From contig JAJRQA010000094.1 in the NCBI GenBank assembly GCA_024280475.1, forward strand, positions 1 through 55,513: a DNA stretch of 55,513 nt. The letters run 5' to 3'. The DNA is from Alphaproteobacteria bacterium (lineage in GTDB: Bacteria; Pseudomonadota; Alphaproteobacteria; Rhizobiales; JAKIUO01). The notes beneath the pieces were generated by a model. It searched no databases. It was not told where the DNA came from and saw only the letters and a list, made by a program, of their open reading frames with translations. Positions 32,277 to 43,191 of the stretch are shown here, one piece after another; the stretch's first letter is position 1, and each line of letters starts with the position of its first letter. The position numbers and the translations under genes were made by a program.

Positions 32277-32963
32277 TCAGCCGCTCGCATGATCACTGAC
32301 AAGTTGGGCGGCGGAGAGGCTGGAGAGCCAGTCGCCAAAGCGGTCACCCTGCACCGATACATGGCCTTGCAGCAAGCTGGCGGTCAGTTCGTCCTTGCCC
32401 TCGATGATGGCTTTAGTGATAGCGCTGTGTTCAGCATAAGATTCGGCCATGCGCCCAGTGGATCGAAGTTGCAAGCGGCGATAGGCCTGCAAGCGGCGCT
32501 GCAGTCGTTTGACTTCGCCAGCAAGAAACTTGTTATGGGATCCTTCATAGATGACACCGTGGAAGCGGACATTTTCCGTGTAATAAAGGTCTCTATCATT
32601 GCTGCGTACCGCTTCACCGCAGATTTCATGCTGCTTTTGCAGGTGAACACGCTCGATCTCGGTCATGCGCCGCGCGGCAAGGCGTCCGCAGATACTTTCC
32701 ATTTCCGCCATCATTTCAAACATTTCAAGTAAACGCGGAAGGCTTAGCGAGGCGACAATTGCACCGCGCCTTGGTCGCAGGTCCACAAGTCCTGAAGCCG
32801 ACAGCATTTGCAAGGCTTCGCGTATGGGCGTACGCGAGACACCAAAGCGCTCCGCCAGCGCCACCTCTTCCAGACGCGTGCCAGGAGCAAGCAGGCTTGA
32901 CGCAATCTCTTCTTCAAGCACTTGTCTTAATTGGTCGGCATGTCTTGGTGGCTTGGTGTCCAT
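32277..32963 (-). CDS. GntR/FadR-subfamily regulator, probable malonate regulator
   Basis: A 228-residue regulator with an N-terminal winged helix (EEVALAERFGVSRTPIREALQML at about 32-54) and a C-terminal FCD ligand domain with helical metal-binding residues (YYTENVRFHGVIYEGSHNKFL near 130). The start at 32963 is chosen because GAGAGG lies before it; the longer frame adds 7 residues. It is divergent from the malonate TRAP operon. In rhizobia a GntR protein, MatR, controls malonate genes. Two TTGTA palindromes in the shared 250-base gap are its likely sites. Confidence 0.9.
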   Translation of the reverse strand: MDTKPPRHADQLRQVLEEEIASSLLAPGTRLEEVALAERFGVSRTPIREALQMLSASGLVDLRPRRGAIVASLSLPRLLEMFEMMAEMESICGRLAARRMTEIERVHLQKQHEICGEAVRSNDRDLYYTENVRFHGVIYEGSHNKFLAGEVKRLQRRLQAYRRLQLRSTGRMAESYAEHSAITKAIIEGKDELTASLLQGHVSVQGDRFGDWLSSLSAAQLVSDHASG

Positions 32964-33076
32964 AATCATCCTCTCGCAGCTCACATATTAGCCTTAGCAT
33001 CGTGAGTGCAGTTGCGACAGGAAAACGTCCGGTATTTGGCGCGGCTTGCTCGATCCGGTCACTGGCTGCCTTGATA

Positions 33077-33108
33077 TTGTAGACAAAAATACTTGACTTG
33101 TATACAAT
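33077..33108 (+). promoter_or_regulatory. Promoter of the TRAP/malonate operon with twin GntR operators
   Basis: The -35-like TAGACA (33080-33085), a 17-base spacer and the -10 box TACAAT (33103-33108) form a strong sigma-70 promoter. The palindromes TTGTAGACAA (33077-33086, one mismatched pair) and TTGTATACAA (33098-33107, perfect) lie on these boxes, centres 21 bp apart. The start codon is ~105 bases downstream. Confidence 0.8.
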
Positions 33109-33213
33109 CTAAGGGGACTTTGTATGTGTGAAACCACAAAAGCGAACCCGCCTCGTTCAAAATGAGAAAAAATGGCGGGTAAAGTTCAAGCTTGATTTTC
33201 CCGGGAGGAAAAA

Positions 33214-34203
33214 ATGAATAAACTTCTTTTGAAAACTGTGTTGGGTGCCACGGCTATGATTTTTGCCGCCACGTCTGCAAATGCCATTGAATTGCGCGCC
33301 TCACACCAATGGAACACCAAAGATGTGCGCCACAAAATGGTACAGATCATTGCCGATGAGCTGGCCAAGGCCAATGTTGGCGCAACGGTCAAGGTCTATC
33401 CCACCAAATCTCTTTACAAGCCAAAAGAGCAATGGGCACCGCTCACCACGGGTGAGCTTGATATCTCGGCGTTCCCGCTGGCTTATGCCGCAAAACGCCA
33501 TCCAGAATTTGATTCAACCTTGATGCCAGGACTTGTTAAAAATCATGCCCATGCCACGCGCATGAATGACAGCCCCTTTATGGACGACATCAAGGCGGTG
33601 ATTGATAAAGCCGGTGTGATGGTGATATCGGATGCCTGGTTGGCTGGCGGTTTTGCCTCCAAGAAAAAATGCGTTCTGGCTCCAGCTGATGTGAAGGGAC
33701 AAGTGTTCCGCGCCGCTGGTAAAGCCTTCAACAGAATGCTGCAAGGAGCTGGTGCCTCTATCCAGTCCATGCCGTCATCAGCGATCTATACCGCCTTGCA
33801 ACAAGGCGTGCTGGATGGTGCCAATACTTCTTCTGGTTCCTTTGTTTCTTACCGCATTTATGAGCAGGTGACATGTCTGACGGCTCCAGGTGCCCACGCC
33901 CTGTGGTTCATGTATGAGCCCATTTTGATGTCAAAAGCTTCGTTCGCCAAGCTCAATGATGCCCAGAAAAAAGCTGTGATGGCCGCTGGACAGGTCGCCG
34001 AAGACTGGTTCGCTAAAAAGGCTGCAGGTCTTGATACGACAATGGTTGAAGCTTACAAAAAAGCTGGCGTCAAAGTTGTTGAAATGAGCGCCGAGGATGC
34101 CGCCGCGTGGCGGGCGATTGCTCAAAAGACCAGCTATGCCGCTTTTACCAAAAAGGTCAAAAATGGTCAGGCGCTGATCAATAAGGCGCTGGCGGTCAAA
34201 TAG
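33214..34203 (+). CDS. TRAP transporter solute-binding protein, DctP family (probable malonate)
   Basis: A 329-residue periplasmic binding protein with a signal peptide (MNKLLLKTVLGATAMIFAATSANA, cleavage near 24). DctP features include ELRASHQWNTKDVRH, LTTGELDISAFPLAYA and the DGANTSSGSF segment near 205, with an Arg-bearing FRAAGKAFN stretch that binds the carboxylate in homologues. It is first in the TRAP-decarboxylase-ligase operon. A TRAP transporter for malonate (MatPQM) is known in Sinorhizobium, and the gene order here supports malonate as substrate. GGGAGG precedes the start. Confidence 0.93.
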   Translation: MNKLLLKTVLGATAMIFAATSANAIELRASHQWNTKDVRHKMVQIIADELAKANVGATVKVYPTKSLYKPKEQWAPLTTGELDISAFPLAYAAKRHPEFDSTLMPGLVKNHAHATRMNDSPFMDDIKAVIDKAGVMVISDAWLAGGFASKKKCVLAPADVKGQVFRAAGKAFNRMLQGAGASIQSMPSSAIYTALQQGVLDGANTSSGSFVSYRIYEQVTCLTAPGAHALWFMYEPILMSKASFAKLNDAQKKAVMAAGQVAEDWFAKKAAGLDTTMVEAYKKAGVKVVEMSAEDAAAWRAIAQKTSYAAFTKKVKNGQALINKALAVK

Positions 34204-34259: not shown

Positions 34260-34328
34260 TGAATGGCATATGCAAGATGCCATAACAATCCATCGGGCGA
34301 AATCCCTAACAAAGCGAAGGACGAAACT

Positions 34329-34826
34329 ATGGTGGCGTTTATTGAGCGCTTGTCCAGCATCGCTGGAGTGATTGCCGCTATGCTTATCGGCATCGCCATT
34401 GTCATTGTTTGCCAGATGGTATTCATCCGCTATGTGCTGGTGGGATCGACGGCTTGGCAAACGGAAGTGGTGACCTTTTCACTGGTCGGTGCGACCATGT
34501 TAGGTAGCGCCTATGTCTTGAAACTGCGAGGCCATGTCTCGGTTGGTTTGGCGATGGTCTACTCTCCCCCCAATGTCCGGCGTATCATGCAAATCATCGG
34601 AGATTTTCTGGTGTTTTTGTTTGCGGCCCTGATGTTTTGGAAAGGGCTTGAGGTGACGTTGCAGGCCTTCCACGGCGACTGGACCACAGAATCGATCTAC
34701 GAATTCCCCATGTGGATCCCTTATTCTGCCATGCCCATCGGTTTTGGTCTGCTGGCCTTGCAAGCCATTGCCTGCATGATCAGCGCCTCGCGCCATGAGG
34801 GCATACCTCATCAAAGGGAACATTGA
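34329..34826 (+). CDS. TRAP transporter small membrane subunit, DctQ family
   Basis: A 165-residue membrane protein with four helices, the small permease of the TRAP system. The start at 34329 (MVAFIERLSSIAGVIAA) has AAGGA upstream; the longer frame is untypical. Family motifs: VFIRYVLVGSTAWQTEVVTFSLV and the IPYSAMPIGFGLLALQ stretch near the C-terminus. One base separates it from the large subunit gene. Confidence 0.92.
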   Translation: MVAFIERLSSIAGVIAAMLIGIAIVIVCQMVFIRYVLVGSTAWQTEVVTFSLVGATMLGSAYVLKLRGHVSVGLAMVYSPPNVRRIMQIIGDFLVFLFAALMFWKGLEVTLQAFHGDWTTESIYEFPMWIPYSAMPIGFGLLALQAIACMISASRHEGIPHQREH

Positions 34827-34827
34827 T

Positions 34828-36141
34828 ATGGGACCTGGCGTTATTGGCCTGTTGATTGGCCTCACTGTATTTATTCTTTTGGCCCTTAGTGTTCCCGTCG
34901 GGTTCACATTGATCATAACAGCAATCGGTTTTCTCGTGGCGTTCAAGGGGCCAATAGCGATCTCTACGCTGGCCGAAAATTATTTCGCGGGGCTTGCTGA
35001 GTTTACGCTTTTGTCGATCCCCATGTTTATTGTCATGGGAGCGGCGGTGGCTGCCTCTCCAGCCGGCAAGGATTTGTACGAGGCGCTGGATCGCTGGCTC
35101 AATCGTTTGCCCGGCGGTTTGATTATCTCTAATATTGGGGCCTGCTCGATCTTTGCCGCGCTCTCTGGATCTTCTCCCGCCACCTGTGCCGCTATTGGTA
35201 AAATGGGCATCCCTGAAATGCGCAAGCGGGGCTATCCTGACGGACTGGCAACCGGGGCTATCGCAGCTGGCGGCACGCTTGGCATTTTGATCCCGCCCTC
35301 GATTACGATGATTGTCTATGGCATCGCCACCGAAACGTCTATCGGGCGTTTGTTTCTGGCAGGTTTGTTGCCGGGCTTGATGCTGACCCTTTTATTCATG
35401 GGCTGGTCGCTCTATATAGCGTGGAAGTCAGGCTATAATTTTTCCAAAAAACGGCACGTCACCTGGAAAGCGCGCTTTGAGATTTTACCTCGGGTGCTGC
35501 CATTTCTATCAATTATCGTCGGCGTTTTGTGGGTGTTATATGGCGGGGTCGCAACTCCATCGGAAGCGGCTGGTGTTGGCGCCGCTTTTTGCATTTTATT
35601 GGCGGTGATTATTTACCGCATGTGGAACCCGCGCGACCTATGGGCCATTTTATCCTCGTCCATGAAAGAAAGCGTGATGATCTTGACGATCATTGGTTGC
35701 GCGGCGATTTTTTCTCAGATGCTCTCGTCTTTTTATATCACCCAAGCCGCCGCCGAAGCGATTGCTGCGGCTGGTCTCAATAAATGGGTACTGATCCTTA
35801 CCATCAATTTCTTTTTGCTGGTGGCTGGTTTCTTCTTGCCACCTGTCGCGGTCATTTTGATGACCGCGCCCATCTTGTTGCCCATCGTCATTCACGCTGG
35901 GTTTGATCCCTATTGGTTCGCGGTTATATTCACCATCAATATGGAGATCGGCCTCATCACGCCGCCGGTCGGGCTCAATCTGTATGTGATCAATTCGATT
36001 GCTCCAGATATTCCGCTCGCCACCATTCTCAAGGGGGCGTTGCCGTTCATGATCTGCATGGTCATTGGCATTCTTTTGCTGTGCGTGTTCCCCGGTATCG
36101 CCACCTGGTTGCCCAACTACATGATGGGGCCTGTGGTATGA
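34828..36141 (+). CDS. TRAP transporter large membrane subunit, DctM family
   Basis: A 437-residue ion-transporter family protein with about 12 helices. The start at 34828 (MGPGVIGLLIGLTV) follows AAAGGGAA. Typical DctM motifs are SIPMFIVMGAAVAASP, SGSSPATCAAIGKMGIPEM, AAGGTLGILIPPSITMIVYG and IGLITPPVGLNLYV. It would drive uptake of a dicarboxylate, most likely malonate, using sodium or a proton gradient. Its stop overlaps the malonyl-CoA decarboxylase start as ATGA. Confidence 0.95.
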   Translation: MGPGVIGLLIGLTVFILLALSVPVGFTLIITAIGFLVAFKGPIAISTLAENYFAGLAEFTLLSIPMFIVMGAAVAASPAGKDLYEALDRWLNRLPGGLIISNIGACSIFAALSGSSPATCAAIGKMGIPEMRKRGYPDGLATGAIAAGGTLGILIPPSITMIVYGIATETSIGRLFLAGLLPGLMLTLLFMGWSLYIAWKSGYNFSKKRHVTWKARFEILPRVLPFLSIIVGVLWVLYGGVATPSEAAGVGAAFCILLAVIIYRMWNPRDLWAILSSSMKESVMILTIIGCAAIFSQMLSSFYITQAAAEAIAAAGLNKWVLILTINFFLLVAGFFLPPVAVILMTAPILLPIVIHAGFDPYWFAVIFTINMEIGLITPPVGLNLYVINSIAPDIPLATILKGALPFMICMVIGILLLCVFPGIATWLPNYMMGPVV

Positions 36142-37508
36142 CCAGTTTTTTCAGTGATCTACTTGTGGCCATCAGCGAGCGCGGGCGCAGCCTCATTGAT
36201 TTGCAACAAGCATCTCCTGAACCAAAAGATCTGCAAGCGACTGCCAAGGCCTTGTTGTCGCAAAAAGGCGAAGCCTCCGGGATTGCGCTGGCCAGTGATT
36301 TTTTCTCCGTTTATGACGGCTTGAACGAGAGCGAGCTTGATGCTTTTTTTAATATGCTAGCTGAGCAATTCGGGCCTGACCTTGAGGGGGTCAATAAAAT
36401 CATCTCGGGTCTTCGTGAGACGCTGAGCGTTGACGAGGTGTTGCAGCTTCATCAAAAATCCGAGCCGCAAAGACAAGAGCTTTTTCGTCGCCTCAATCAG
36501 GCACCACAGGGAACATTGCGGCTGGTGCGTTTGCGCGAAGACTTGTTGGCACGGCTCGAAAAAAACCCTCGACTTGCTGAGGTCGATGCCGATTTACATC
36601 ATCTGTTCCATTCCTGGTTCAATCGTGGCTTTCTGGTTTTGAAGCGGATTTCCTGGTCAACGCCTGCCTCCATTCTTGAAAAAATCATTAAATATGAGGC
36701 GGTGCACGAAATCGCCAGTTGGGAGGATTTGCGCCAGCGCATCGAGCCAGCTGACCGGCGTTGCTATGCGTTTTTTCATCCAGCTCTGGTTGAAGAGCCA
36801 TTGATCTTTGTGGAAGTTGCGCTTGGAGAAGAGATCCCGGACGCGATCGAACCAGTGATCGCCCAAAAGCGTCAAAGCGTCAAAACTGCCGATGCCAGAT
36901 TGGCGACCTTTTATTCTATCAGCAATTGTCAAAAGGGACTGTCCGGCATTTCATTCGGTAATTTTTTGATCAAACAGGTGGCGCAAGAATTACTCAGTGA
37001 GCTCCCTCAACTAGACGCATTTGCGACGCTCTCCCCGATGCCGGGCTTCGTGAAATGGCTCCGGCATCTGATTGATCATCAAGAAGAAAAAAAACGGGAG
37101 GATGTTCCTGTTGTGAACGAGGAAGAGCTGCGTGCCATCAAACACCTGCTGGCGAGCGGCTGGCCGGCACCCGCTGATAAACAACAAGCATTGGAGAAAA
37201 TACTTGTGCCGCTTTCAGCCTGGTATTTTCTCAATGCAAAGGACCGCGATCAAAAGCCATATGACCCGGTGGCACGTTTTCATCTGGGCAACGGGGCGCG
37301 ATTGGAGCGCATTAACTGGCTGGCTGATCGCTCTGCAAAAAGTTTTAGCCAATCAGCCGGGATCATGGTCAATTACCTTTATGATCTCGACAAGATCGAA
37401 CATAATCATGAAGCTTTTGCCAATCAAGGCGAGGTGATTGCTGCCAGTTCGATTGCGCGCATTGCAAAACTGTCTTCTTCATTTCAAACCGTGGAGAAAG
37501 TGTCATGA
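36138..37508 (+). CDS. Malonyl-CoA decarboxylase
   Basis: A 456-residue enzyme converting malonyl-CoA to acetyl-CoA and CO2. The start at 36138 overlaps the TRAP large-subunit stop; a much longer frame upstream is a shadow of the TRAP gene. Family landmarks: RRCYAFFHPALVEEPLIFVEVAL near 200-225, SNCQKGLSGISFGNFLIKQV near 265 (the catalytic Ser is in LSG) and FHLGNGARLERINWLAD near 385 (the catalytic His is in FHL). The N-terminal ~130 residues are the helical domain. It overlaps the ligase gene by 4 bases. In rhizobia the equivalent is MatA. Confidence 0.95.
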   Translation: MTSFFSDLLVAISERGRSLIDLQQASPEPKDLQATAKALLSQKGEASGIALASDFFSVYDGLNESELDAFFNMLAEQFGPDLEGVNKIISGLRETLSVDEVLQLHQKSEPQRQELFRRLNQAPQGTLRLVRLREDLLARLEKNPRLAEVDADLHHLFHSWFNRGFLVLKRISWSTPASILEKIIKYEAVHEIASWEDLRQRIEPADRRCYAFFHPALVEEPLIFVEVALGEEIPDAIEPVIAQKRQSVKTADARLATFYSISNCQKGLSGISFGNFLIKQVAQELLSELPQLDAFATLSPMPGFVKWLRHLIDHQEEKKREDVPVVNEEELRAIKHLLASGWPAPADKQQALEKILVPLSAWYFLNAKDRDQKPYDPVARFHLGNGARLERINWLADRSAKSFSQSAGIMVNYLYDLDKIEHNHEAFANQGEVIAASSIARIAKLSSSFQTVEKVS

Positions 37509-39034
37509 CGACCTCACAAGATCACAATCTGTTCGGTATATTTCGCAGCCGTATCGAGAATCTTGACGCCCCGTTTTTGCAATTGCCTGATGATCGGGTG
37601 ATCAGCTATGGGGATATGGTGAAGCGCTCCGCGCAATTTGCCAACGCTCTTGTGTCGCTTGGAGTAAAGCCGGGAGACAGGGTTGCTGCGCAAGTCGAGA
37701 AAAGTGCGGATGCCTTGTTCTTATATCTTGGGTGTTTGCGGGCAGGGGGCGTGTTTCTACCGCTGAATATGGGCTACAAGGACAAGGAGTTGGCCTATTT
37801 TATCACTGATGCCGAACCTGCTCTGGTGGCGTGCACGTCGGCGCGCAAAAATGCCCTCGAGGAGATTGTCAGCGCCTGCGGGTCTGGTCGTGTTGAAACA
37901 TTTGATCAAGGCGGTGGGGGCTCTTTGATTGAGATCGCAGATGGTTCGGATACAGTTTTCAAAGATCTGCATCGCGAAGCAGATGATCTGGCTGCCATCC
38001 TTTATACATCGGGAACGACCGGGCGATCAAAAGGCGCCATGCTGACCCATAAAAACCTCTCGTCCAACGCGCAAGCGCTTGTTGACGTCTGGCAGTTCAC
38101 GAACACTGATGTGTTATTGCACGCACTTCCCATATTTCATACGCATGGTCTGTTTGTTGCGACCAATACCGTTTTAAGCTCGGGCGGTTCGATGATTTTT
38201 CAAAATAAATTTGACGTTGAGCGCGTGCTTGCTGCCTTGCCGCGTGCGACTTGCATGATGGGCGTGCCAACCTTTTATTCCCGCTTGCTGGCTTCAAAGG
38301 AATTAACCCGCGATCTGGTTTCTCATATCCGCGTTTTTATCTCAGGGTCAGCCCCCCTGTCGCCAGAAACTCATAAAAAATTCGAACAACAGACCGGCCA
38401 CGCTATTCTGGAGCGCTATGGAATGACCGAGACCAGCATGAACACCTCGAACCCGTTTGATGGCGAGCGCCGCGCCAGCACGGTTGGTTTTGCGCTGCCA
38501 GACATCGAAATCCGTATCGTCGATATTGAAAGCGGGGGTGAGCTTGACACCAATGAGGTGGGTGTCATTGAAATTCGTGGCCCCAATGTCTTTAAGGGCT
38601 ATTGGCGCATGCCCGAAAAAACCAAAGAAGAATTTCGGGATGATGGCTTTTTCATTTCTGGGGATTTGGGTTTCATTGATGAACGCGGTTACATTTCGAT
38701 TGTCGGTCGCAACAAGGATCTGATCATTTCAGGCGGTTTTAATATTTACCCCGCTGAAGTGGAAAATGCCCTTGATGCCATCAACGGCATTAGCGAGAGC
38801 GCTGTTATTGGCGTGCCTCACCCTGATTTTGGAGAAGGGGTGACGGCGGTTGTGGTGCCTGAAGGTGAGTGCCCGCTTGGCACGGAAGACATTCGCGCCA
38901 CACTTGAACGTGATCTGGCCAACTACAAATTGCCCAAGCGGGTATTTTTCGTCGATGCCTTGCCTCGCAACAAAATGGGGAAAATTCAGAAAAATCAGCT
39001 GCGTGAACAATTTCACGCAGCCTATCAGGCTTAG
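37505..39034 (+). CDS. matB: Malonyl-CoA synthetase (malonate-CoA ligase)
   Basis: A 509-residue adenylate-forming enzyme making malonyl-CoA from malonate, CoA and ATP. Motifs: the P-loop YTSGTTGRSKGAMLTHKN near 165-182, the YGMTET stretch near 305, GRNKDLIISGGFNIYPAEVE near 405 and the C-terminal catalytic Lys in NKMGKIQKNQ near 495. The close fit of the N-terminal region to MatB and the linked decarboxylase make malonate the likely substrate over other acyl acids. It overlaps the decarboxylase stop as ATGA. Confidence 0.93.
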   Translation: MTTSQDHNLFGIFRSRIENLDAPFLQLPDDRVISYGDMVKRSAQFANALVSLGVKPGDRVAAQVEKSADALFLYLGCLRAGGVFLPLNMGYKDKELAYFITDAEPALVACTSARKNALEEIVSACGSGRVETFDQGGGGSLIEIADGSDTVFKDLHREADDLAAILYTSGTTGRSKGAMLTHKNLSSNAQALVDVWQFTNTDVLLHALPIFHTHGLFVATNTVLSSGGSMIFQNKFDVERVLAALPRATCMMGVPTFYSRLLASKELTRDLVSHIRVFISGSAPLSPETHKKFEQQTGHAILERYGMTETSMNTSNPFDGERRASTVGFALPDIEIRIVDIESGGELDTNEVGVIEIRGPNVFKGYWRMPEKTKEEFRDDGFFISGDLGFIDERGYISIVGRNKDLIISGGFNIYPAEVENALDAINGISESAVIGVPHPDFGEGVTAVVVPEGECPLGTEDIRATLERDLANYKLPKRVFFVDALPRNKMGKIQKNQLREQFHAAYQA

Positions 39035-39074
39035 CCGTGCTATTCATTCAGATCATCAGGATCGAGATCAAATA

Positions 39075-40022
39075 ATGAGCACGGTATTATCACTGACATT
39101 ACCATTTTTTGGCTTGATATTTCTCGGATTTATGGCCGCGAAATTCTTTCGTAAAGAGCAACCGGCAGGTGATTGGCTTACCATATTTGTGGTTTATTTT
39201 ACCGTCCCGGCGCTGTTGTTTTCACTGCTCTCCAAAGCACCCATCGAAGAGCTGGGAAACATGAGCTTCATCGTCGCGACGACGGGCTCGACATTGTTGG
39301 TTTTTATTCTGGCATTTTTATTGGCGACGTCGCGCCACAAGAAAGGCATTGCGGCAACCTCGCTGCAAGCGGCTGCCGGTTCTTACAGTAATTGTGGCTA
39401 TCTTGGCGTCCCGCTTGCTGTTGCAGCTTTTGGCTCCAGCGCCGCAATCCCTGCCACTCTTATTGTTTGTTTTGACAGCCTTTTGATCTTTCTGCTGGTT
39501 CCGGTTTTTATTGCACTTGGGCGATCTGACCGGCCAGGGTTTGGTACCGTTTTGAGCGACATTGTCAACCGTATCGTTTTCAATCCGCTGATCCTTGGCT
39601 GCGTTGCTGGCATATTTGCAGCCTATTTCGAATTTATGCCTCCAGGCCCGATCAATCGCGTCATAGAATATTTGAGCACAGCGGCTGCGCCTTGCGCCCT
39701 TTTTGCGCTTGGGGTCACCGTTGGCTCGCGCTCGGTCGAGCGTTCTTCTGCTGGGGTGAGTACCAATATATTTTTCAAGTTAATCGTTCATCCGCTGGTG
39801 TTGCTGGGCGTGCTTTTGCTGGTGGGCATCACGGGGGTCTGGCTGAAAACAGCTGTTCTCATAGCCTCACTACCAACAGCGCTTGGCGTTTATGTCATCG
39901 CCAATCAGGCACAAGTGGAAACGCAAAACGTCTCAAGTACCATTTTATACAGTACGGTCATTTCGCTGATCACCATCACATCAATTCTGTATATTTTCGA
40001 ACTCGGCTTCCTGCCTGAATAG
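39075..40022 (+). CDS. AEC-family transporter
   Basis: A 315-residue membrane protein of the auxin efflux carrier family (10 helices), a family that includes the malonate carrier MdcF. Motifs: FFGLIFLGFMAAKFF near the N-terminus and AAAGSYSNCGYLGVPLAVAAFG near 108, a typical AEC repeat turn. It ends the malonate operon, 40 bases after matB. It may be a second malonate carrier, perhaps low-affinity or outward, beside the TRAP system. The ribosome site is weak; the ATG at 39075 is set by the hydrophobic N-terminus. Confidence 0.87.
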   Translation: MSTVLSLTLPFFGLIFLGFMAAKFFRKEQPAGDWLTIFVVYFTVPALLFSLLSKAPIEELGNMSFIVATTGSTLLVFILAFLLATSRHKKGIAATSLQAAAGSYSNCGYLGVPLAVAAFGSSAAIPATLIVCFDSLLIFLLVPVFIALGRSDRPGFGTVLSDIVNRIVFNPLILGCVAGIFAAYFEFMPPGPINRVIEYLSTAAAPCALFALGVTVGSRSVERSSAGVSTNIFFKLIVHPLVLLGVLLLVGITGVWLKTAVLIASLPTALGVYVIANQAQVETQNVSSTILYSTVISLITITSILYIFELGFLPE

Positions 40023-40216: not shown

Positions 40217-41695
40217 ATGAAAATATTCCCAACCCCTATTCATACCTCCCTGCGCTATTGGACACATTACGGATCAAATAGTAATAACAACATGACCGGT
40301 AGCGATTTCCAAGACGTCTTTTACACTTATAATGGGCGCGATAGGGTTTATGCCGGTGGTGGAAATGACATTATTTTTGGCGGCTCTGGTCGCGATATTT
40401 TCTATGGCGATGATGGCAATGATACGCTCTATGGCTATGGAGGTGTCGATTTCCTGCATGGCGGACGCGGCGAAGACCATATTTATGGTGGAGATAGCCG
40501 GGACTGGCTTTGGGGCGATGAGGGTAACGACTGGCTCTATGGAGAAGAGGGCCGGGATACACTTTACGGTGGCGATGGTATCGACCATTTATATGGCGGC
40601 GCGGGCAATGACACTTTGACCGGTGGCCGAGGTGCCGATGTGCTTGATGGCGGGGATGGTATTGATACCGCCAACTATTCAACCTCTATCGCTAATGTTC
40701 GCGTTGACCTGGCAGCTGGAACCGGCAGGGGACAAGATGCACATGGCGACACCCTTATCAATATCGAGAATGTTACGGGTTCAAATAGCAGGGATGTTCT
40801 GAAGGGAGATGGCCAGGATAATGTTCTCTCGGGGCTTGGATCCAGAGATAATATATATGGCGGCGACGGTGATGATACGATCCTTGGCGGCGCTGGCGAT
40901 GATGAACTGTTTGGTGAGCGAGGCGCAGACTTCATTGATGGCGGCGCAGGCGACGAAGATATCGCTAAATATATTAAATCATCTGCCGGTGTCGAAGTTA
41001 ACCTGACCACAGGTGAAGGCCGTGGTGGAGATGCGCAAGGCGACAGGCTGGTGAATGTGGAACAGCTGATGGGTTCACAATTCGATGACACCTTCATCGG
41101 TGATAGCGCTGACAACTTCCTAACTGGTCTTGGCGGAGATGATGTTCTCAGAGGCGGATCTGGCGATGACTTACTGCGGGGCGGTGTTGGCAACGATATA
41201 ATGGATGGTGGCGCGGGAAATGATACCGCCTCCTTAAGATTTTCAGGTTCATTCGGTATGCGGATCGACCTGGAAGAAGGAGAAACCAGATCGATTGACA
41301 CCGGAGATATGGTGGATGAACTCATCAGTATTGAAAATATTGAAGGCACCGGCTGGGCAGATCGTATCTACGGCGATGATGGTGATAATCAGCTCAACGG
41401 CATGGGTGGAGACGATAGAATAGAAGGCGGTGACGGCAACGATACTTTGATCGGTGGCAGCGGCACGGACCGCTTCATCTTTGACGATTATTGGGGCAAT
41501 GATGTTATTAAAGATTTTGATCTTAACGGCGAGAAGCTGAATTTTGATAATGTTCGGCGACTTGGCGACGATGATATGACCATGGTGCAACAAGGTAATG
41601 ACACCATCATCACATTTGATGAGGACAATGCCGGAACGATCGTTCTGGAAAATGTTGAAATGTCTTTGCTGACAGACGATCATTTTTCCTTCTAG
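40217..41695 (+). CDS. RTX calcium-binding repeat protein 1 (type I secretion substrate)
   Basis: A 492-residue protein almost wholly of RTX-type GGxGxDxUx repeats. There is no Sec signal and no cysteine. Four repeat blocks (about 30-150, 190-245, 285-335 and 375-420) are split by ~40-residue spacers with a shared pattern: V-x-V-D-L-x-x-G, then GD-x-L-x-N-I-E-N (near 162-185, 259-285 and 348-375). The end (TDDHFSF) is acidic then hydrophobic, as in PrtD-type export signals. No protease, lipase or other enzyme motif is visible. The second RTX gene 3' is a paralogue with a matching leader. Likely exported by the adjacent ABC/HlyD pair; role unknown. Confidence 0.9.
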   Translation: MKIFPTPIHTSLRYWTHYGSNSNNNMTGSDFQDVFYTYNGRDRVYAGGGNDIIFGGSGRDIFYGDDGNDTLYGYGGVDFLHGGRGEDHIYGGDSRDWLWGDEGNDWLYGEEGRDTLYGGDGIDHLYGGAGNDTLTGGRGADVLDGGDGIDTANYSTSIANVRVDLAAGTGRGQDAHGDTLINIENVTGSNSRDVLKGDGQDNVLSGLGSRDNIYGGDGDDTILGGAGDDELFGERGADFIDGGAGDEDIAKYIKSSAGVEVNLTTGEGRGGDAQGDRLVNVEQLMGSQFDDTFIGDSADNFLTGLGGDDVLRGGSGDDLLRGGVGNDIMDGGAGNDTASLRFSGSFGMRIDLEEGETRSIDTGDMVDELISIENIEGTGWADRIYGDDGDNQLNGMGGDDRIEGGDGNDTLIGGSGTDRFIFDDYWGNDVIKDFDLNGEKLNFDNVRRLGDDDMTMVQQGNDTIITFDEDNAGTIVLENVEMSLLTDDHFSF

Positions 41696-41727
41696 CGGTT
41701 GCATGAGCAAAGGCAGGTCAAGACAAA

Positions 41728-41759
41728 CCGGGCGCTTCCCCAAGCGCCCGGTTTTTTTT
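41728..41759 (+). terminator. Terminator after RTX gene 1
   Basis: A 10-bp stem CCGGGCGCTT/AAGCGCCCGG with a CCCC loop and eight T. It differs by one wobble-position base from the terminator after the second RTX gene. Confidence 0.95.
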
Positions 41760-41786
41760 GTGTGCGGAAAGACCAAACATCGTTCA

Positions 41787-41802
41787 TGTGATGACCGTCA
41801 CA
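41787..41802 (+). promoter_or_regulatory. CRP-like site upstream of the second RTX gene
   Basis: TGTGATGACCGTCACA matches TGTGA-N6-TCACA. The centre is ~107 bases before the start codon and ~30 bases before a -10-like CATAGT near 41822-41827. Same layout as the first RTX gene. Confidence 0.75.
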
Positions 41803-41901
41803 TCATGAGATCGGGAAAACTCATAGTTTTATTTCACCAGCTTCGTTCGGAAGCAAAATCCAAAACAGCATTTTTCAACACAAAATGAAGGAATTAAGAC
41901 A

Positions 41902-43191
41902 ATGAAAATAGTATTGCCGGTTACCTGGAGACGTTATGGCACAGATGGCAATGACACGCTGTACGGAACCAATTATGCCGAAACCTATTACACCTATAAT
42001 GGAGAGGATACAGTCCATGCCGCAGGTGGCAATGACATCATCTATGGCGGCTACCATGTAGATAGGTTCTACGGTGAAGACGGTAATGATGCCCTCTATG
42101 GCTATGGCGGTGATGATTGGCTTTTTGGCGGCAATGGCAATGATTTGCTGGTCGGTGGCAAGGGCAGCGACTGGCTGTCTGGCGGCGATGATGACGACCG
42201 CTTGTTTGGCGAGCAGGGAAATGATGATCTGTACGGCGGTTTCGGCAATGACAGCTTGTATGGAGGGGCAGGTGACGACATTTTAGTCGGTGGTGAGGGT
42301 GCCGATCTGCTTGATGGGGGTGATGGGGTCGATATTGTGAAATACGACCGAGCCACCGAACATATCAGCATTGACCTCGCAGACGATACTGCATATGCCG
42401 CCGCTTATGGCGACACCCTTGTCAATATCGAAAACGTTTCGGGCACGAGATATAACGACAACATCTTTGGAGACGAAAAGGACAATGCTTTCTATGGCCA
42501 ATTTGGCGATGATTTTCTTGCCGGTGCGGGTGGAGATGACAAGCTTTATGGAGGATTGGGCGATGATGTACTGAGCGGAGACGCGGGTGATGACAAGCTT
42601 TACGGCGGCAATGGCGACGACCAGCTCGATGGTGGAGAGGGTAATGATATTCTTCTTGGTGGCGATGGGATAGATACCGTTTCTTACATTTACAGAGCGA
42701 GCGGCTTTGAAATAGACCTTGAGGGAAACTATGCCCATTCACTTGATGGCAGCAAGGAGGGGGATAAACTCAACAGCATTGAAAATGTTCAAGGCTCCAG
42801 AAATGATGACTTGATCAACGGCTCCTTAGAAAACAACACCCTTAGTGGCAATGGTGGCGATGATATCATCAATGGCCGTGGCGGGGACGATCTTTTGCAT
42901 GGCGGAGGCGGGCGAGATGTCTTCATATTTGACCATGATGTAGATCGTGTTAGCGAGAATGATATCATCAGCGACTTCAGGAGCGGCGTTGACCGCATAG
43001 ACCTTAGCAACACCGGCATCGAAAGCTGGAAAGATCTGTTCGATGGCTCTGATCCAGAAGGTGCAGGTTATGATGGAGACTATATCGAGTCTGGTACATA
43101 TCGCGTCATTATTCATACGAATGAAGAAGACACCATCACTTTGAAAGGGACATGGTTGAGCGATCTCGATGAAAGTGACTTCATCTTCTAG
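41902..43191 (+). CDS. RTX calcium-binding repeat protein 2 (type I secretion substrate)
   Basis: A 429-residue paralogue of the upstream RTX protein. The N-terminal ~50 residues match the first protein closely (YTYNG, then AGGNDIIYGG). Three repeat blocks (about 15-145, 180-260 and 300-340) are split by two spacers with the same V/I-x-IDL and GD-x-L-x-x-IENV pattern. No signal peptide, no cysteine, no enzyme motif. It ends ESDFIF, an acidic residue then hydrophobic residues, the classic C-terminal signal for PrtD-type exporters. The leader before the ATG (AAGACAATGAAAATA) is shared with the first gene, so gene and leader were duplicated together. Confidence 0.9.
   Translation: MKIVLPVTWRRYGTDGNDTLYGTNYAETYYTYNGEDTVHAAGGNDIIYGGYHVDRFYGEDGNDALYGYGGDDWLFGGNGNDLLVGGKGSDWLSGGDDDDRLFGEQGNDDLYGGFGNDSLYGGAGDDILVGGEGADLLDGGDGVDIVKYDRATEHISIDLADDTAYAAAYGDTLVNIENVSGTRYNDNIFGDEKDNAFYGQFGDDFLAGAGGDDKLYGGLGDDVLSGDAGDDKLYGGNGDDQLDGGEGNDILLGGDGIDTVSYIYRASGFEIDLEGNYAHSLDGSKEGDKLNSIENVQGSRNDDLINGSLENNTLSGNGGDDIINGRGGDDLLHGGGGRDVFIFDHDVDRVSENDIISDFRSGVDRIDLSNTGIESWKDLFDGSDPEGAGYDGDYIESGTYRVIIHTNEEDTITLKGTWLSDLDESDFIF

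Follow-up and report, generated by a model that had tools for sequence, protein, structure and literature searches.

The stretch of DNA analysed here, referred to below as the window, comprises 55,513 nucleotides of contig JAJRQA010000094.1 from an alphaproteobacterium of the Rhizobiales (assembly GCA_024280475.1). It contains a gene for a GntR-type regulator that is divergent from a predicted operon encoding a TRAP transporter, a malonyl-CoA decarboxylase (MCD) and the malonyl-CoA synthetase MatB (Table 1). The regulator carries both the GntR domain (PF00392, 64.4 bits with a cut-off of 27) and the FCD domain (PF07729, 86.1 bits with a cut-off of 24.3), and an internal ATG, at either 32963 or 32969, is a more probable translation start than the GTG at 32984. 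The assignment of the operon to malonate is based on the decarboxylase and on the match of the synthetase to the MatB model NF005702, and the transport of malonate is predicted. The operon possibly ends with a permease of the auxin-efflux-carrier family, to which the malonate carrier MdcF of Klebsiella also belongs; it may therefore hold two malonate carriers, the TRAP system and this permease.

Table 1. Genes, predicted operators and candidate promoter elements of the locus (window coordinates)
Feature	Position	Strand	Remarks
gntR (MatR/GtrA-like regulator)	32277-32984	-	GntR and FCD domains
DctP, TRAP transporter substrate-binding protein	33214-34203	+	
DctQ, TRAP small permease	34263-34826	+	
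DctM, TRAP large permease	34795-36141	+	
Malonyl-CoA decarboxylase, MatA type	36138-37508	+	Pfam MCD and MCD_N
Malonyl-CoA synthetase MatB	37505-39034	+	NF005702, 802.4 bits (cut-off 558)
Auxin-efflux-carrier-family permease	39072-40022	+	Possibly last gene of the operon
Predicted operator A, TTGTAGACAA	33077-33086	+	9/10 to TTGTATACAA; palindrome with one broken pair
Predicted operator B, TTGTATACAA	33098-33107	n/a	Perfect palindrome
Candidate -35 of dctP operon, TAGACA	33080-33085	+	Inside operator A; promoter scan
Candidate -10 of dctP operon, TACAAT	33103-33108	+	Overlaps operator B; last T outside the palindrome
Candidate -35 of gntR, TATACA	33099-33104	-	Inside operator B; promoter scan
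Candidate -10 of gntR, TACAAT	33076-33081	-	Overlaps operator A; outer base is A33076 on the + strand
Rival -35, TTGACT	33093-33098	+	Between the operators; 34/58 loci have TTGAC at this position ahead of the downstream site

The operator pair in its own genome

Both putative operators lie in the gap between gntR and dctP, and their centres, at 33081.5 (site A) and 33102.5 (site B), are 21 bp or two DNA turns apart, so that sequence and gene calls agree with the original prediction of twin sites at this spacing between the divergent gntR gene and the TRAP/malonate operon. As a single element the motif is unexceptional. When up to one mismatch was allowed, TTGTANACAA gave 8 strand-hits in the window against 7.87 expected, which places single near-matches at chance level, and the exact sequence occurs at 13 places (15 strand-hits) in the assembly of 3,785,426 bases, compared with 32 strand-hits for the reversed control. 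On its own, then, the motif shows no enrichment in this genome. Sites A and B are, however, the only neighbours among these 13 exact places, and a search of the 3.79-Mb assembly with the paired pattern TTGTNNACAA-N11-TTGTNNACAA returned the pair A and B as the one place without mismatches, none with one mismatch and three with two. Relaxing the search to three or fewer mismatches yielded 30 places versus 25 for the reversed control, which is background.

One of the three pairs with two mismatches, located at C62:11687-11717 of the same assembly, consists of TTGTAGACAG and CTGTAGACAA spaced 21 bp apart. Further exact places in the assembly include TTGTAGACAA on contigs C97, C44 and C245, together with places that read TTGTAAACAA. 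The only other exact TTGTATACAA in the assembly, on C117, is taken as a chance occurrence because it falls inside an open frame of 348 aa. A third candidate site in the window, TTGTATGTGT (33120-33129, + strand), is 22 bp from site B and was set aside as too weak, matching at 6/10 by hand count; one of the comparison loci, L005, has TTGTACACTT (7/10) at the corresponding offset.

The regulator and its nearest known relatives

To place the regulator, we built a tree from 113 regulator sequences. Its 98/91-supported split leaves the window protein on one side together with the regulators of Rhizobium leguminosarum bv. trifolii TA1 (L148) and Sinorhizobium meliloti (L112). That side holds 69 of the 113 rows, namely 49 of the 54 that are mat-linked, 16 labelled dctp_only and 4 unlinked. 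Linkage to mat genes is spread over more than one clade, with 10 changes of which no fewer than 6 are forced, and five of the 54 mat-linked rows are on the other side of the split. The label dctp_only, given to 17 of the 113 rows, denotes a DctP protein that is less than 45% identical and the lack of MCD and MatB in the stretch examined, and the transporters of some of these regulators may carry another substrate. Five betaproteobacterial MatR-like regulators (L036, L041, L032, L033 and L035) have TRAP genes as neighbours, with a DctP that is only 35-38% identical, and neither MCD nor MatB was matched in the stretch examined; the same operator type may here be used for a different substrate. 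The window's own assembly, rated 94% complete, yielded only two FCD proteins, the second at contig C160:17957-18328. All relatives returned by a search of solved structures belonged to the GntR family, the best with E 1.8e-20, and MatR was not among their names. The GntR and FCD domains, the divergent malonate genes, the side of the tree and the TTGTA/TACA-type operator together place the predicted regulator in the MatR/GtrA group.

The locus resembles the MatR-matABC system of Rhizobium leguminosarum bv. trifolii, in which an FCD-type GntR regulator is likewise divergent from the genes for malonyl-CoA decarboxylase and synthase. The TA1 regulator is 46.9% identical to that of the window, and the TA1 gntR-MCD gap contains TCTTGTATACACGA with TCGTGTACGA (7/10) exactly 21 bp downstream. 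In work from 2000 attributed to Lee et al., the MatR site is said to read TCTTGTA/TACACGA, and we take the TCTTGTATACACGA of the TA1 gap to be this published site; on that footing, the original prediction that the TTGTA/TACA-type core is close to the MatR site holds good. In contrast to the window, TA1 has no TRAP genes between regulator and MCD, the gene after its synthase is annotated as a hypothetical protein, and only its central site is strong.

The gene order gntR / dctP dctQ dctM MCD matB is common to the window and pSymA of S. meliloti, where TTGTATACAA also lies between gntR and dctP, in a gap of 128 bp, and the two regulators are 52.2% identical over residues 18-224. Unlike the window, the S. 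meliloti locus has one strong site, whose weak companions at a distance of about 21-22 bp reach 6/10 by hand count, and carries no auxin-efflux-family permease after matB, the next gene being greA on the other strand. In S. medicae (L113), the companion at +21 reaches at least 7/10. Regulation of a malonate TRAP transporter by GtrA in S. meliloti is reported in the title of Chen et al., 2010, as cited in PMC5237526, and we infer that the pSymA locus is the GtrA locus of that study.

Conservation and 21-bp phasing of the operators

A first set comprised 113 loci, L111 being left out because it duplicates L112, and 61 of them (window included) have a gntR homologue with DctP or MCD divergent from it at no more than 400 bp. 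The best site in the gap matched TTGTATACAA at 9/10 or better in 52 of these loci, and at 10/10 in 31, which bears out the expectation of GntR-type sites beside the divergent regulator gene, while nine loci lacked any 9/10 or 10/10 site. A second set of 31 loci was composed of 30 from a phylum-wide draw plus the R. leguminosarum locus; 12 of these had no 9/10 or 10/10 site, several of them with DctP or MCD beside gntR. The loci without a strong site in the two sets (9/61 and 12/31) therefore suggest that other lineages use other sites. Seven loci with DctP or MCD beside gntR and no 9/10 site (L131-L135, L141 and L142) include several with tatatac or gttatatataac palindromes, which are perhaps a different operator type.

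Both members of the pair are retained, 21 bp apart, in L002-L005, comprising three loci from the same genus and one from another family. The counterpart of site A is the identical TTGTAGACAA in L002, TTCTAGACAA in L003, CTGTAGACAG in L004 and TTGTCGACAA in L005. Within the window clade, L004 matches at 7 and 9, and the others (L001-L003, L005) match at 8/10 or better at both sites. Site A has been lost and site B kept in L007, from the same wider clade, and L006 has two 8/10 sites that are 131 bp apart. Taken with the wider comparison, this makes it very probable that the predicted sites A and B are real, conserved operators.

The spacing of secondary sites was analysed in loci whose best site reached at least 9/10, which dropped nine of the 61, and removal of near-copies reduced the remaining 52 loci to 45. 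Taking the main site as anchor, we scored how closely the sequence at each offset between -45 and +55 resembles the same motif. The mean match was 4.93/10 at both -21 and +21, the next offset scoring 3.53, and dinucleotide shuffles of the flanks gave 2.60 and 2.63 at these two positions (sd 0.2, z about 11); over 1000 such shuffles, no offset scored above 3.60. When the window clade was left out, the 40 other loci still gave 5.30 at +21 and 4.72 at -21. In the same count, secondary sites of at least 7/10 numbered 14 at +21 and 12 at -21, and two or fewer at any other offset. Filtering of the second set (31 loci less 12 with a best site below 9, 4 repeats and 2 near-copies) left 13 loci, two of which (L125 and L127) gave no DctP, MCD or MatB match in the short stretch examined. 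In these 13 further loci, -21 (5.23) and +21 (5.08) were again the two best offsets, followed by +12 (4.23). The recurrence of the same peaks in both sets is consistent with the co-operation that the original prediction had read into the two-turn phasing.

Across both sets, a second site scoring 7/10 or better is present at -21 or +21 in 27 of the 58 loci, and at both in six. Sites of at least 8/10 at these positions occur in only 8/58 loci, three of them from the window clade, so the second site is weak outside this clade. The distance between sites is constant at ±21 across gaps of varied length: second sites of at least 7/10 are found at exactly 21 bp despite GntR-to-gene distances that range from about 77 bp (L014) to 289 bp (L021). 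The main site is often followed by TTGAC and then by a weak site, as exemplified by TTGGATGCAA in L015. Where a good +21 site is present, the preceding TTGAC starts at offset 15 in some loci (L014, L028, L049 and L148 are examples) and at offset 16 in others (such as L010, L015 and L017); since this offset varies whereas the operator spacing stays at 21, the promoter would seem not to be the sole constraint, the arrangement of the protein being another. The window clade has its TTGAC ahead of the strong site B, and the place of the relatives' strong site is occupied by site A, so that, when the loci are aligned by TTGAC, the strong position appears to be shifted by one 21-bp step.

We conclude from these comparisons that the twin sites represent a strong, lineage-specific form of a predicted 21-bp-phased operator array that is also present at the TA1 mat locus. 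A bolder proposal, to which we give distinctly less than even weight, is that dimers of MatR-type proteins line up in rows on operators placed every 21 bp (up to three, in the order weak-strong-weak, in some Alpha- and Betaproteobacteria), and that the strongest site has slipped by one such step between lineages, whereby a central anchor would have become a pair that forms a two-way promoter. Our literature search, whose reach did not extend to the original MatR work of 2000 or the GtrA work of 2010, found no paper describing a 21-bp-phased array of MatR-type sites. A comparable arrangement is provided by FadR-subfamily divergons with common double sites, in which a near-constant distance has been read as co-operative control of both operons (Suvorova et al., 2015; PMC4494728); in the main text of that study, malonate is met only in a reference. 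As in those divergons, two sites lie at near-constant distance between regulator gene and target operon, and the constant distance would assign the window locus to the common-double-site class, even if most loci have only a weak second site.

Candidate promoter elements and proposed control of the divergent operons

A promoter scan of the region found two candidates, compared with a mean of 0.1 in shuffled sequences. TAGACA-17-TACAAT on the + strand matches the consensus at 10/12 positions and TATACA-17-TACAAT on the - strand at 9/12, each being built from parts of both operators. The original prediction had placed the two sites exactly on the -35 and -10 boxes of the TRAP/malonate operon. A fair consensus promoter is indeed found there, although the starts of its hexamers lie 3 and 5 bp into the sites and its -10 box extends one base past site B; the finding that the same palindromes also form a candidate gntR promoter is an addition to that prediction. 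In L001-L005 the candidate -35 element is TAGACA or TCGACA (5/6 to TTGACA), followed after 17 bp by TACAAT or TACAGT (4-5/6). The sixth bases of the two -10 boxes, T33108 and A33076, lie just outside the palindromes and are invariant in six aligned related loci, which is modest evidence for operator-borne promoters in the window clade, because the six loci are related and L007 lacks site A. A back-to-back pair of candidate promoters for the mat operon and gntR, formed by the operators themselves, is therefore plausible.

The placement of the promoter is the point at which the strongest alternative departs. Here the regulator and its sites are the same, but the operon promoter would use TTGACT as its -35, with a poor -10 box, and the regulator would act mainly as a malonate-dependent activator from site A, immediately upstream of that -35, with site B exerting a damping effect. 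We regard this as unlikely, although the element is widespread: in 34/58 non-redundant loci, TTGAC begins 14-16 bp on from the first base of the main site, with -10 boxes that reach only 2-4/6, and it precedes site B in L001, L003, L005 and L007. An activating role would also be in keeping with MatR, which a paper on another malonate operon, citing the original work, credits with a dual role in the transcription of matR and matABC, naming malonate as the positive effector (PMC5845375). L004, however, has TTATC where other loci have TTGAC, and in the window clade the hexamer 17 bp downstream of TTGAC is only 2-3/6 to TATAAT, as against the 5/6 and 4-5/6 of the operator-borne elements, whose outer base T33108 is the same in all six related loci.

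According to a second alternative, which we rate as slightly less probable again, the two sites are read independently, one per operon and without co-operation, and their spacing merely reflects the promoter pair. Each site does lie on one candidate -10 box in the window clade, and 71 of 100 FadR-subfamily divergons with double sites were assigned to separate control by Suvorova et al. (2015; PMC4494728). The same source describes the spacing of such separate pairs as growing with intergenic length, whereas here it stays at 21 bp over the whole range of gene distances given above. That sites A and B are a chance pair of AT-rich palindromes, as the expected count of one-mismatch sites in the window and the unenriched exact motif might suggest, deserves practically no credence and is already refuted as far as sequence allows, given that they form the only exact pair in the assembly and that their position, sequence and 21-bp phasing are kept in relatives, including those of the second set.

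We consider it likely that sites A and B are operators of the divergent FCD-type GntR protein, a relative of MatR and GtrA, and that they serve co-operative, malonate-responsive control of both operons through a two-way promoter. As we infer them, the binding of this protein, its co-operativity, the location of the promoters, the identity of the ligand and the direction of control would fit together as follows. The two palindromes would be bound by the divergently encoded regulator, with two dimers on the same face of the DNA, two turns apart, probably aiding each other. If the operators contain the boxes of back-to-back promoters, one bound complex would cover the promoters of both the mat operon and gntR, such that the mat operon would be silent or weakly expressed until malonate, or a ligand derived from it, switches it on, and gntR would control itself. 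A response of the locus to malonate is likely by analogy with its relatives. Repression with induction is more likely here than activation, in line with part of the original prediction; given the dual role ascribed to MatR in PMC5845375, control need not be purely repressive, and there is room for activation as the less likely sign.

This kind of switch is already known and the kind of system is unchanged by these results; what they contribute is 21-bp phasing as a general trait and a candidate two-way promoter built from the operators. The locus gains a well-supported predicted operator for the predicted malonate uptake genes of this lineage, and steep responses to malonate could be explained by the exact 21-bp phasing that secondary MatR-type sites show in several families. 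This phasing could also guide the design of malonate biosensors, one of which, built on MatR, has a 540-fold range according to a review (PMC11683335).

Two minor features of the surrounding sequence were noted. The dctP leader (33115-33216) contains a hairpin, a possible stem ACCCGCC...GGCGGGT at 33146-33180 whose folding is somewhat better than that of shuffled sequences, with a z of -2.44 and 7 of 200 shuffles as good, for which we make no claim because its stem, judged by eye, loses pairs in L003 and L004. Beyond the permease gene, two adjacent open frames at 40217-43191 contain many GGxGxD-like repeats, by eye of the calcium-binding RTX type.
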